Part shown: positions 35,032-48,166 of the stretch, in pieces
Layout of the letters: each line of letters starts with the position of its first letter
Numbering within the stretch: the stretch's first letter is position 1
NCBI GenBank assembly: GCA_003225295.1
Contig: QHYZ01000092.1
Coordinates: forward strand, 1-60,230
Length of the DNA: 60,230 bases
Direction: 5' to 3'
Origin: Acidobacteriota bacterium
Lineage (GTDB): Bacteria > Acidobacteriota > Terriglobia > Acidiferrales > UBA7541
Translations under genes and position numbers: made by a program
The notes under the pieces: generated by a model
What the model was told of the DNA's origin: nothing
What the model saw: only the letters and a program-made list of their open reading frames with translations
Databases searched by the model: none

Positions 35032-35062
35032 CTTCTGGCGCTGTCTTGGCCGTTCTCCTTCT

Positions 35063-35099
35063 GGCGGGCAACCTCACGTTGCCCGCCACTTTTCTTCTA
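35063..35099 (+). terminator. Intrinsic terminator after cdnL
   Basis: GGCGGGCAAC-CTCAC-GTTGCCCGCC (35063-35087) is a perfect 10-bp stem with a 5-base loop, followed by ACTTTTCTTCT. It ends 32-68 bases after the cdnL stop. Confidence 0.85.
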
Positions 35100-35579: not shown

Positions 35580-36356
35580 TCAGGGCCGCGGAAGAGCGCT
35601 GACCACCACCCCTGCTTGGTGCAAGATCCGTGTCACCGTTGCCGCGATCTCCGGCGCTCCTGGGGTGTCGCCATGAATGCAAAGGGTCTGCGCATCAACA
35701 GAGACTTCTGTCCCATCGCATGCAATTACCATGCCTCGTTCCACTATACGCAACGCCTGCACGCCTGCTTGCGCGGGATCACGGATCAGCGCGTCCTCCA
35801 ACTTACGTGAGCGCAACGTTCCATCCGGCTCGTACCGCCGGTCGGCGAAGGCTTCAGCAGCCACTCGGAACCCCGCTTTTCGGAAGATATCCAACATCGG
35901 CGACCCCGCCAGACCCACAAGCACGACGTCGCGGTTCCATCGTGCGACGCCCTCCGCAATCGCCTCCGCAATGCCGTGATCTCGCACCGCCTGATTGTAA
36001 AGCGCGCCATGCGGCTTGACGTGCGTCAAGCACACGCCGTAACCGCCGGCAATCCCGGCAAGTGCCCGGACCTGATCGAATACAGAAGCTGCAATCTCGT
36101 TCGGCGGCAGTTTCAACGCCAGCCGCCCAAAATTCTCACGATCCGGGTACCCGGGATGCGCCCCGACTGCCAGCTTCCAGCGAATCGCCTGTTCGACCGT
36201 TGTCTTCATGGTTTGTACGTCCCCCGCGTGCCCCCCGCAGGCCACGTTGACCGACGTGAGCGAAGGCATCAGCGATTCTTGCGTGCCATCCGCAATCGCC
36301 TCCGCCAGCTCACCCATATCGCAATTCACATCAATATTTCGGTGCACGTGCCTCAT
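35580..36356 (-). CDS. pxpA: 5-oxoprolinase subunit PxpA (LamB/YcsF family)
   Basis: PxpA works with PxpB and PxpC to hydrolyse 5-oxoproline (pyroglutamate) to glutamate with ATP, removing a metabolite damage product. The 258-residue protein has the family start IDVNCDMGELAEAIADGT, then SVNVACGGHAGD, VGAHPGYPDRENFGR, VKPHGALYNQA and CIHGDTPGA. The start overlaps the pxpC stop by four bases (ATGA). The gene order is pxpB-pxpC-pxpA. Confidence 0.94.
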   Translation of the reverse strand: MRHVHRNIDVNCDMGELAEAIADGTQESLMPSLTSVNVACGGHAGDVQTMKTTVEQAIRWKLAVGAHPGYPDRENFGRLALKLPPNEIAASVFDQVRALAGIAGGYGVCLTHVKPHGALYNQAVRDHGIAEAIAEGVARWNRDVVLVGLAGSPMLDIFRKAGFRVAAEAFADRRYEPDGTLRSRKLEDALIRDPAQAGVQALRIVERGMVIACDGTEVSVDAQTLCIHGDTPGAPEIAATVTRILHQAGVVVSALPRP

Positions 36357-37345
36357 TCGAAAATCAGCTCCTCCGAGGCCATCAGTTCCTCCTGCTCACT
36401 CAACAGGGATCGCGCCGTTTCCCACGCCACCCGTTCGAATCGAATCTCATCGCGCGGCCGAAGCTGGCCGAGACTGTGGAAATCCGCGGAAATCAGATTG
36501 GCGATCTTGGGATATCCGCCCGTGGTTTGCTGCTCCACAAAAAGGATAATGGGCATGCCACCGTCGGGCACCTGAACGGCGCCGAGTGTAACACCCTCGG
36601 AAACCATCCCTCCCGTGCCCCGGCTGGGACCGGCATTCCCGCCTGTCTCCTCCGGCCACGTATCATCGCGGGGCATCGGAATGGCCGCACCTTCCAAGCG
36701 CAGCCCCATGCGATTGGCATCCTCCGCAACTCGATAAGTGCTCCCGTAGAACAAGGGCTCCGAGGCCTCGTCAAACCAATCACTCTGCGGGCCCGGCGTA
36801 ACCCGCAAGACCCGGCGAGGCTCCGCCATCTTCACCGCTCGCGCCGACAGCCTTCGCTCGCGAGCTAACCCGCTCGCGGCCCCCATGTGTAGCACATCTC
36901 CTTTTCGTAACGCACGCCCTTCAAACCCGCCAAGCCCACTCAAAATATGCGTTGATGCGCTTCCAAGAAAAGGCTCCACCGCGATGCCACCTCGCACGCA
37001 CAAATAACACCGCGCCCCTGAACACGTCGGCCCCAGCCGCAGCGTCTGCCCCGGTTTTACCGCAAACGTCGTCCACAAATCGACCCGCTCTCCGTCCAGT
37101 GTCGCGCCGAAATCGGAACCAGTCAGGGCGCCGGTGGCGCCCTGCGGAAAAATAAACGTGCCGCCGAGCAGCGTCATCTCCAAACCAGCCGCGCCCTCAG
37201 CATTGCCAAGCAATCGATTTCCCAGCCGAAGTGAAATCGCGTCAGCCGCCCCGGAAGCTGAAACGCCAAGAAAAGCGAAACCTTCTCGCCCCAGATCTTG
37301 CACGGTGGTGAAAAGGCCAGACTCGCGCACCCGAATCACTCCCAT
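36353..37345 (-). CDS. pxpC: 5-oxoprolinase subunit PxpC (biotin-dependent carboxyltransferase fold)
   Basis: PxpC forms the catalytic complex with PxpB. The 330-residue protein has the start IRVRESGLFTTVQDLGREGF, the block SGAADAISLRLGNRLLGN, and the C-terminal GYPKIANLISADFHSLGQL. ATG 37345 overlaps the pxpB end by ten bases and matches the normal N-terminus. A frame open to 37477 runs into pxpB and is not used. Confidence 0.94.
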   Translation of the reverse strand: MGVIRVRESGLFTTVQDLGREGFAFLGVSASGAADAISLRLGNRLLGNAEGAAGLEMTLLGGTFIFPQGATGALTGSDFGATLDGERVDLWTTFAVKPGQTLRLGPTCSGARCYLCVRGGIAVEPFLGSASTHILSGLGGFEGRALRKGDVLHMGAASGLARERRLSARAVKMAEPRRVLRVTPGPQSDWFDEASEPLFYGSTYRVAEDANRMGLRLEGAAIPMPRDDTWPEETGGNAGPSRGTGGMVSEGVTLGAVQVPDGGMPIILFVEQQTTGGYPKIANLISADFHSLGQLRPRDEIRFERVAWETARSLLSEQEELMASEELIFE

Positions 37346-38082
37346 TCCTTCTCCAGCGCCGCAAATCGTTCGGCGGAGATCGGCGTAAATCGCACGCGGT
37401 CTCCAATGCTCAAAAGGCTCAACCCGTCGCGGTCCGTTCGAAACATCGCCATAGGAGTCCGTCCAAGCAATCTCCATCCACCGGGCGTGGCGAACGGATA
37501 CACACCGGTCTGATGGCCGGCGATCCCCACGCTGCCCGCTAGCACCCTTCGACGCGGCGTCGCCAGCCGCGGCGTCACCAGCGCTTCAGGCAACCCACCC
37601 AGATAAGCGAATCCAGGCACGAACCCTAAAAAATAGACAAGGTACTCGGGTGCGGCATGCATCTCGATGGCCTTCGCGGCCGTCATTCCGTGCATCGCGC
37701 ACACCTCAGCCAGGTCCGGACCGTACTCTCCGCCATAGCACACTGGAATTTCCACTTGATGCGGCTCCGGGAGGATCACCTCATCAAGCCGCTCGAGGCA
37801 TCGCCGCAGAACCGCTTCGACTTCCTCGTGCCGCAACCGAAGTGCATCAAACTTGACCAGCAAAGAGCAATACCCCGGATGAAGATTCCGAAAGCCTTCA
37901 ATGGGTTCCAACTGCAGCAGCCGCAGCAGCTTCCTGACCCTTTCATTCGCTTGGAGCGTGATCTGAGTCTGTAGAGGCCGAGCTTCAGCTCGGCCTTTTC
38001 TATTCTGTCGAGCGAAATAAACCAGCAGCGATTGATCGCTCGCCAGTTCGAATCGCGCGCCTCCGCCCGCTTCTATGTCCAT
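37336..38082 (-). CDS. pxpB: 5-oxoprolinase subunit PxpB (KipI-like), carrying an in-frame palindromic insert
   Basis: PxpB binds PxpC in the 5-oxoprolinase complex. Family motifs are intact: SDQSLLVYF at the start, FRNLHPGYCSLLVKFD, VCYGGEYGPDLAEVC, LVYFLGFVPGFAYLGGLP and GSVGIAGHQTGVYPFATPGGW. Between the first strand and the ANERV helix, where only a handful of residues normally lie, there is an extra basic stretch of about 14 residues (RQNRKGRAEARPLQ). It is encoded by a palindrome with a 10-bp perfect stem (37973-37998). ATG 38082 is preceded by TATACT (38097-38092) at a distance that predicts an almost leaderless mRNA; GTG 38103 would overlap that box. The insert is in frame, so the protein may remain active. 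Confidence 0.92.
   Translation of the reverse strand: MDIEAGGGARFELASDQSLLVYFARQNRKGRAEARPLQTQITLQANERVRKLLRLLQLEPIEGFRNLHPGYCSLLVKFDALRLRHEEVEAVLRRCLERLDEVILPEPHQVEIPVCYGGEYGPDLAEVCAMHGMTAAKAIEMHAAPEYLVYFLGFVPGFAYLGGLPEALVTPRLATPRRRVLAGSVGIAGHQTGVYPFATPGGWRLLGRTPMAMFRTDRDGLSLLSIGDRVRFTPISAERFAALEKEWE
37973..37998. repeat. Palindromic element inserted within pxpB
   Basis: AGGCCGAGCT-TC-AGCTCGGCCT (37975-37996) is a perfect 10-bp stem, extended by a G-T and an A-T pair. TTTTC follows on the plus strand. It lies inside coding sequence but outside the conserved blocks of PxpB, and its translation is the non-family segment. The whole extra segment is about 42-48 bases. I found no second copy in this window. 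Confidence 0.75.
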
Positions 38083-38188
38083 GTTCGCGAAAGTATACCG
38101 CACGCGGCAGTAGCTCCAGTGGGACAGGAATTCCTGCCGGTCTAGTTCAGCCGCCCGTCTTCAACGCACCCCTCAGAAACGATCCTGG

Positions 38189-46934: not shown

Positions 46935-48166
46935 GTGGCGGATGCCGAGCCGGAGCGCTTGCCGAAGAGCAGGAATTTCTTGTGGCTCTTCTTGCTCTTG
47001 GTCACCTCTGGCGTGGCGCTCACTTCCTGAATCTCGGAGCCTCCGCCGCCGGCGAGGTCCTGATAGCCGGGCTTGATCACCACGTAGCTTTGCTCGCGCA
47101 GGGTCTTGAGATATTCGCGCATCGCGGGTTCCATGCGTGTGCCGTAAAGCTTGTCCATGATTTCATTCTTGACTTTCGAGAGTGCTTGTTCGCCTTCGTC
47201 GTAGTGCTCCAGAACCTGCAGAACCAAAAAGCCTTGTCTGGTTTCCATAACCTCGGTTAGCTCGTTGCGCTTCATCTTGAAGACCTTGTCCTCAAGTTCC
47301 TTGGAAAGTTCTCCGCGCTTGTAAACACCGAGAAAGCCACCCTGGTTTTTCGTGCTGCCATCGGAAAGCCGCTTGGCGATTTCGGAGAAATCCTCACCGT
47401 CCTGGACGCGCTTGAGCGCGGTCTCCGCCTTTTTCTTCAGGTCGGGGAGGTCTTCGGGCTTCTTTCCCTCGGTGCTAACCACGATCTCCCGCAGCGCTAC
47501 CTGCTCCGGGCGCACGAATTCGGTTTTGTGCGCTTCGTAATACTTGGTCACTTCTTCATCGCTGATGGTGATGTGCGAACCGACCTCGCTGCTGATCACG
47601 CGCTGCTGCAGCAAATTATTGCGAATGTTGTTCTTGAAATCCTCCCAGTTCGTTCCTTGCCCGGAAACCGCCTTTTCGAGCTCCTCCATGCTGGGTAGAT
47701 TGTTCTGAGTGCGGATGGCATCGAGCCTCTTGATGAGCTCAGGCTCGACGCTCACACCCATGTCCTTGGCGCGTTGCACCAGGAGGGACTGGTCGACCAG
47801 CTCGCGCAGAGTGTTTTTCTGGCGATCCTCGATGTTGATTTGCAATTGTTCCGGCGTGCAACGATTCTGGCATTCGGATTTGGCGTCTTCTTCCGCAGCC
47901 AAGCGTGCTTTCTCATACTCCGAGCGGGTGATGATCTCATTGTTCACGCGGGCAATGATCTCTTCGACGGTCTTCCCGCTATCCGCATTAGCCGTTTTCG
48001 GGGCGGCCGGCTTGGCCGGCTTTTCGGATTTTGCGTCGGGGGCGGCCATCCCCGGCTTTTCGAGCGTGGGCCCGCCCGATGGCTTCGGCTGGGAACCTTG
48101 TGGTTGCTGCTGTGCCGCGAGCGGCAGGGCGGCCGAGAGCGCCGCGATGATAACCAGTTTTCGCAT
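46931..48166 (-). CDS. surA: SurA-like periplasmic chaperone and peptidyl-prolyl isomerase
   Basis: SurA helps outer-membrane proteins fold in the periplasm. A signal peptide (LVIIAALSAALPLAAQQ) is followed by a Pro/Lys/Ala-rich linker, the SurA N-terminal helical domain (VEEIIARVNNEIITRSEYEKA), and one parvulin PPIase domain (residues ~225-320, VALREIVVST, then GEDFSEIAKRLSDG and GFLVLQVLEHYDEG). A single PPIase domain is fewer than the two of E. coli SurA. The C-terminus ends in an unusual Lys/Ser-rich stretch (KSKKSHKKFLLFGKRSGS). ATG 48166 has GAGGG upstream; the GTG at 48178 lies in that ribosome site. Confidence 0.87.
   Translation of the reverse strand: MRKLVIIAALSAALPLAAQQQPQGSQPKPSGGPTLEKPGMAAPDAKSEKPAKPAAPKTANADSGKTVEEIIARVNNEIITRSEYEKARLAAEEDAKSECQNRCTPEQLQINIEDRQKNTLRELVDQSLLVQRAKDMGVSVEPELIKRLDAIRTQNNLPSMEELEKAVSGQGTNWEDFKNNIRNNLLQQRVISSEVGSHITISDEEVTKYYEAHKTEFVRPEQVALREIVVSTEGKKPEDLPDLKKKAETALKRVQDGEDFSEIAKRLSDGSTKNQGGFLGVYKRGELSKELEDKVFKMKRNELTEVMETRQGFLVLQVLEHYDEGEQALSKVKNEIMDKLYGTRMEPAMREYLKTLREQSYVVIKPGYQDLAGGGGSEIQEVSATPEVTKSKKSHKKFLLFGKRSGSASAT

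Follow-up and report, generated by a model that had tools for sequence, protein, structure and literature searches.

A GTAG-tagged hairpin within a loop of PxpB and the different in-frame repeats found at the same place across an acidobacterial genus

The GTAG-tagged REPs carry an unpaired GTAG at one foot of a palindrome of 20-40 bp, with stems of 5-13 bp and short loops that are often TY (PMC3733652; PMC2817692). They are RAYT-associated and occur as many dispersed copies, which are mostly intergenic and in some cases intragenic (Di Nocera et al. 2013, PMC3733652; Nunvar et al. 2010, PMC2817692). The REPs that flank RAYT genes are inverted in PMC2817692, and recB of two Xanthomonas species holds REPs at about one site (PMC3733652; PMC2817692). 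Other small repeats have been described inside genes: the intragenic RPE-4 and RPE-6 of R. conorii are counted with the CGTC-tagged class and RPE-1 is a longer palindromic insertion (PMC3733652), and the MITEs of Coxiella burnetii are, according to the title of the paper describing them, small repeats with implications for protein evolution (PMC5896051). In the main text of PMC3733652, Acidobacteria and Koribacter are each mentioned a single time, in both cases for transposases with other inverted repeats. Among the matches listed by our search of the open literature, no title or start of an abstract dealt with the REP family considered here in Acidobacteria, or with a single loop refilled across a genus.

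Here, we describe a palindromic insert found in pxpB, within a window of 60,230 nucleotides (the whole stretch of acidobacterial DNA that was analysed), and compare it with its own genome (G000) and with a set of 36 genomes of the genus. Probably, a GTAG-tagged REP entered a loop of PxpB in an ancestor within this genus, and the loop was then weakly constrained and remodelled.

The insert and its hairpin in the window

Consistent with the initial annotation, pxpB (Table 1) looks intact outside the insert: its frame is open over 255 codons and its product matches the Pfam domain CT_C_D with an E-value of 5.8e-67. Relatives of PxpB in the PDB are 2phc, YbgJ (5dud) and KipI (2zp2). The neighbouring pxpC-like frame matches CT_A_B (E 9.3e-90, for 36353-37339). 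In comparison with homologues whose site is empty, PxpB contains extra residues at positions 34-47, the edge of which can slide by a few residues, and a CAG stands on either side of the insert in the gene sense. The initial annotation had placed about 14 extra residues exactly at the palindrome; 14 were indeed found, but the insert is longer than the palindrome and includes GTAG. The position in frame and within a loop, also proposed there, was borne out by the comparison of homologues and by the AlphaFold2 model, in which the insert belongs to a loop between a strand and a helix, with a pLDDT under 50 at residues 35-45.

Table 1. Features of the pxpB locus in the window
Feature	Position	Strand	Basis
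pxpB (5-oxoprolinase subunit B / KipI-like)	37336..38103	minus	ORF; 255 aa, GTG start
pxpC-like neighbour, downstream of pxpB	36353..37477	minus	ORF as listed; true start uncertain
In-frame insert, 42 bp, 14 codons, NRKGRAEARPLQTQ	37963..38004	minus	comparison with empty sites, e.g. L029
GTAG tag, 5' foot of hairpin	37971..37974	plus	sequence
Hairpin left arm, AGGCCGAGCT	37975..37984	plus	sequence
Hairpin right arm, AGCTCGGCCT	37987..37996	plus	sequence

The stem had been given as 10 bp when perfect and 12 bp with a wobble, and this was confirmed at 37973-37998. The hairpin proper (37975-37996) reads AGGCCGAGCT-TC-AGCTCGGCCT, with a perfect 10-bp stem and a 2-nt loop (TC, 37985-37986), and the stem reaches 12 bp when the G37974-T37997 wobble and the A37973-T37998 pair are added; in the window's copy, the G and the A of the tag are able to pair further in this way. 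Elsewhere in the window, an 11-bp palindrome (TGGCGGGCAAC/GTTGCCCGCCA, 35062-35088) followed by a T-rich stretch is terminator-like.

A 10-bp palindrome alone is unremarkable in 60 kb. Indeed, about 0.4 such palindromes are expected over this length (loops of 2-8 nt, equal bases), and when the local sequence was shuffled 200 times, 8 of the shuffles folded as well as the real one. Because a palindrome of this size is near chance and shuffles fold as well, the case for an element rests on comparison. In the window, no second copy of the hairpin was found at up to 3 mismatches, in agreement with the initial annotation, and the search for inverted repeats at the settings used returned none. A looser hairpin pattern was dropped (11 matches versus 13 in its control), and two weak matches to the model described below, at window positions 47396 (18 bits) and 21825 (17.5 bits), were set aside as too weak.

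A dispersed and mostly intergenic family

The family pattern GTAGNGGCCGGNCTTNNGNCCGG, searched at up to 1 mismatch, gave 421 matches in 34 of the 36 genus genomes (up to 42 per genome) and 3 with the reversed control; this pattern included the tag, the conservation of which is partly built into the matches. The own genome contains two of these matches, neither of them in pxpB, and the pxpB copy in the window differs from the pattern by 2 mismatches. In the homologues, the hairpin plan at the pxpB site is, in plus-strand sense, TGTAG-N-GGCCGGGCTTNAGCCCGGCC or TGTAG-T-GGCCGGTCTTCAGACCGG.

The model used for further searches and for covariation was built from an alignment of 11 hairpins of the simple kind, selected by hand from 10 species and excluding the compound hairpins, G031 and G006. 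In this alignment, 94.3% of the cells pair, and this proportion, the 8 two-sided cells and the covariation score were each reached by 0 of 500 shuffles; two of the five covariation measures failed to beat the shuffles of these 11 hairpins (123/500 and 279/500). Applied to the own genome, where 150 of 4636 candidates were scored, the model gave five matches with an E-value under 1e-3 (C143, C331, C329, C264 and the pxpB copy), a count which is too low, as it does not list the two weak positions of the window. The repeat nature suggested by the initial annotation thus holds for a dispersed palindromic family; the absence of any other copy in the genome, which had been named as evidence against it, is true of the exact 22-mer (no further copy with 2 or fewer mismatches in the draft genome of 8.13 Mb, which has 385 contigs and is 96% complete) but not of the family, with four other members.

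We also examined 155 distinct copies, taken from the loci of pattern matches and from retrieved stretches, with the exclusion of at least four copies of G011 and two pxpB copies. They fall into two subfamilies, which differ by complementary changes in the stem, and a T precedes the tag in 86-87% of 153 copies, a base that the pattern did not demand. The tag and the complementary differences between the subfamilies are typical of GTAG-tagged REPs, and the family fits this class. The initial annotation had likened the element to those of Rickettsia, to which the GTAG-tagged REP is preferable, RPE-4 and RPE-6 having the other tag class (PMC3733652). Four GTAG hairpins, the stems of which are related without being identical, lie within 1.3 kb of the own genome (G000:C186:11684-12952; L060, L061, L064, L065), and a second short repeat, GTCATCCTGAGCG..., adjoins REPs in several places (L052, L055, L117, L205); a GTCATTCCGAG-like form of it recurs in frame in PurL of three species (see below).

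Taken together, these comparisons of sequences place the pxpB hairpin above chance, through the dispersed family and through the homologues that carry other family hairpins at the same place. A palindrome arisen by chance in an ordinary expanded loop, unrelated to repeats, would agree with the number of palindromes expected in 60 kb and with the uniqueness of the 22-mer. However, the tag, the loop and the stem plan are those of the 421 dispersed matches, and consensus family hairpins occupy the pxpB site of homologues, e.g. in G022 and G014; we regard such an origin as extremely improbable.

The family is mostly intergenic. According to a coding test based on simple codon usage, 2 of 150 copies are in coding sequence (a lower bound, as this insensitive test passed only one of five pxpB positive controls), versus 289 of 572 positions located 500-700 nt away; the remaining 5 of the 155 copies were too close to a contig end. 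The two copies that passed belong to the PolX gene of G030 and to PurL of G013. Other intragenic candidates were rejected, either because the start codon seems by eye to be downstream of the element (L112, L163, L182, L196), as a probable chance match in a gene (L220) or for want of a Pfam match (L148). Two more were left uncounted: a possible in-frame REP near the N-terminus of a DUF5118-like protein (L140; 22.3 bits, below the cut-off of 27) and another after a Trans_reg_C domain, the domain being upstream only (L190).

Different repeats in the same loops

Matches to pxpB were found in 28 of the 36 genus genomes, and a further locus, L049, which is outside the genus, gave no site. The insert is present in 15 of the 28 and the site is empty in 13, its position lying between YF and a QIT-like motif. 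When the 15 inserts were tested for a perfect stem, seven beat the shuffles (at most 8 of 300), four were equalled by 23-49 shuffles and four by 98-191; of the last four, an alignment to the family is still possible for G011 and G013 but not for G031 and G006. Extra residues without palindrome in relatives, which the initial annotation had considered as an argument against an element, therefore exist in part, in G031 and G006, whose inserts have no recognisable palindrome. The sister genome G015 has a broken stem in its insert.

By eye, the occupants of the site comprise a GGGCT-type hairpin with its close variants, a GGTCT-type hairpin, a compound hairpin and tandem pairs (G022, G028). In the tandem pairs, each unit ends in CAG, like the gene's own edge. 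Orientation and frame are uniform across the inserts wherever a hairpin is readable, and the kinds of repeat differ. The core of the compound hairpin is itself dispersed, with 54 matches in 11 of the 36 genomes, two of them in pxpB, and none in the control. The pxpB gene of G029 (L028), which contains a compound insert, is interrupted by an internal TAA, after roughly residue 95 of the stretch shown, and may be a pseudogene or reflect an assembly error.

On a tree of pxpB comprising 27 of the 28 rows (L046 missing), the status of the insert changes six times (4-6 over bootstraps), and at least two of these changes are forced by well-supported branches; a well-supported clade of six (99/97) combines two filled and four empty sites. 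With six changes of status, several gains may have occurred.

The initial annotation proposed to look for in-frame copies inside other genes; family members of this kind were found in loops of PurL and PolX of sister genomes. In PurL (29 of 30 loci readable), the loop after ESCFA contains, by eye, a pxpB-type REP in G013, G027 and G014, GGCGGGGCTTGCC-type hairpins in G028, G029 and G020, the GGGGCGCARCATG type in G005, G022 and G017, and an in-frame GTCATTCCGAG-like repeat without GTAG tag in G008, G019 and G024; the place is empty or unclear in about 10 of the 29 genes. Dispersed copies of the GGGGCGCARCATG type occur in 29 of the 36 genomes (control 0). The tag in PurL is in the same codon phase across several species, again by eye. 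PurL of the own genome holds another hairpin at that place, of which no further copy was found in that genome at up to 3 mismatches. In PolX (24 of 30 loci readable), a pxpB-type REP is read in the same antisense frame (NRSKDRPLQ) in G030, inside a stretch matched to the polymerase thumb domain. Extra sequence occurs at this place in 4 of the 24 genes read, that of G030 alone being a pxpB-type REP, and the other 20 have none. A tandem GAGTGGCGAGTGGCGAG-like repeat is also visible within in-frame extra sequence in the thumb region of PolX of G030 and G019 (L256, L259).

The simple hairpin of G000 and the compound hairpin of G029 agree at 21 of 24 nt over the flank and the first arm, a comparison chosen after the fact, and their 12-nt tails agree at 11 positions (read by eye from the alignment); among the 155 dispersed copies, the best agreement with the G000 tail is at most 9 nt. 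Since the flanks agree while the hairpins differ, the alignment suggests one ancestral insert for this pair, remodelled in place. By eye, G024 and G017 look alike in a similar way. Alternatively, a fixed target preference of the transposase could have caused independent insertions at one spot, strand-specific insertion then fixing both orientation and frame. The changes of status on the tree, the clade with filled and empty sites, the CAG that ends each tandem unit in G022 and G028 and the constant codon phase of the PurL tag would all agree with repeated insertion. The shared flanks of G000 and G029 despite their different hairpins, and the tagless GTCATTCCGAG-like repeats at the PurL place, argue against it, and we consider this alternative rather unlikely.

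The closest pair, G000 and G015, shows non-synonymous changes at 4.5 of 37.5 sites in the 17-codon insert zone (pN 0.12) versus 4 of 452.5 in the other 203 codons (pN 0.009; Fisher p 0.0002 or 0.0017, depending on rounding). No clear contrast was seen in G027/G013, with a pN of 0.065 in the insert and 0.040 elsewhere, and the PurL insert of the same pair shows no change in 45 nt. The initial annotation had allowed that coding insertion might be selected for; this finds no support, as amino acids in the insert zone of the closest pair are replaced about 13 times faster per site than elsewhere, although the second pair shows little contrast. We infer that the insert is near-neutral.

A lineage-specific functional loop kept by selection (for binding a partner, for regulation, or as an mRNA hairpin tuning translation) could also be considered. 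Such a loop would be consistent with the persistence of the insert in 15 of the 28 species, with stem covariation on three of the five measures, with the folding of the mRNA strand of the insert region (-19.4 kcal/mol, z -2.05) and with a pN which is not raised in G027/G013. Covariation is, however, also expected from swaps between REP subtypes with complementary stem changes genus-wide, the residues vary from one species to another, with fast change in the closest pair, the stem is broken in G015, 13 of the 28 species do without the insert and the loop is predicted to be disordered. A function of this kind is improbable in our opinion.

We favour the entry of a REP, in an ancestor within the acidobacterial genus, into the loop between the second strand and the first helix of PxpB. 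The gene would have stayed open because a REP read in the antisense direction brings no stop codon into this frame, because the insert adds up to a multiple of three nucleotides and because additional residues are tolerated in the loop, and the enzyme presumably still works. The opened loop would have become a small island of weakly constrained sequence, in which the hairpin may have decayed in some species while a second REP was gained in others. A swap to another type of repeat with retention of the flanks might have taken place through similar outer arms. The putative mover is a RAYT transposase, according to the hypothesis of the literature.

Candidate movers and comparison with known systems

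RAYT (NF047646) scores over the cut-off in 19 of the 36 genus genomes and not in the own genome, where the best match has 27.6 bits versus a cut-off of 80. Among 30 RAYT loci examined, 20 of them over the cut-off, a pxpB-type REP was found at two: L242, with one on both sides, and L231, with two copies on one side. The two REPs flanking L242 are in direct orientation, unlike the inverted ones described in PMC2817692. In G013:C190, a REP copy lies 99 bp from RAYT, and hairpins of other types border several of the remaining RAYTs. REPs are not enriched at RAYT loci (5 in 94.8 kb versus 9 in 124 kb for a background that takes in the pxpB inserts). RAYT is a plausible mover within the genus, the copy in the window being probably a relic. 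At L237 (G026:C341, 951-2333), the RAYT gene is surrounded on both sides by a dense array of GTAGCAGCGGCTTTACGCCGCTG hairpins, and the same contig carries an empty pxpB site.

The Y1 transposases of the own genome (10 matches) were discarded as movers: seven of their loci were scanned for tagged hairpins, and a pxpB-type REP was present at none. GTAG-preceded hairpins of other sequence (TCCCC...GGGGA), perhaps element ends, were seen near Y1 transposase matches at L013:3132 and L017:3128, one of them beside a 472-aa ORF which we take to be TnpB.

In-frame REPs have so far been catalogued gene by gene. The pxpB place can be followed through 28 species in filled, empty, decayed, tandem and swapped states, which makes testable the turnover rate of intragenic palindromic repeats, whether they exit cleanly and whether protein loops draw raw material from them. 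A second such place is the loop of PurL, which acts in purine synthesis. We give about even chances to the idea that certain enzyme loops of this genus are harbours which, after one in-frame repeat, are refilled repeatedly by unrelated repeat families. If this is true, housekeeping enzymes (PxpB, PurL, PolX) would be steadily supplied with new loop sequence by REP turnover.

Compared with other small elements, MITEs have terminal inverted repeats, usually with a target duplication, and the insert of G000 has a 3-nt CAG on both sides. Palindromic repeats in frame within genes are shared with the Rickettsia palindromic elements; unlike RPE-4 and RPE-6, tagged by CGTC, the pxpB element has a GTAG tag, and the phylum is also different. 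The GTAG foot, the 10-bp stem, the 2-nt TC loop, the mostly intergenic location of the family and its subfamilies with complementary stem changes across the genus are all as in GTAG-tagged REPs. In contrast to those described, one place is occupied here in 15 of 28 species, and by several kinds of repeat. In-frame REPs were already known; what is new is that a single loop is filled by different repeats in half of a genus.
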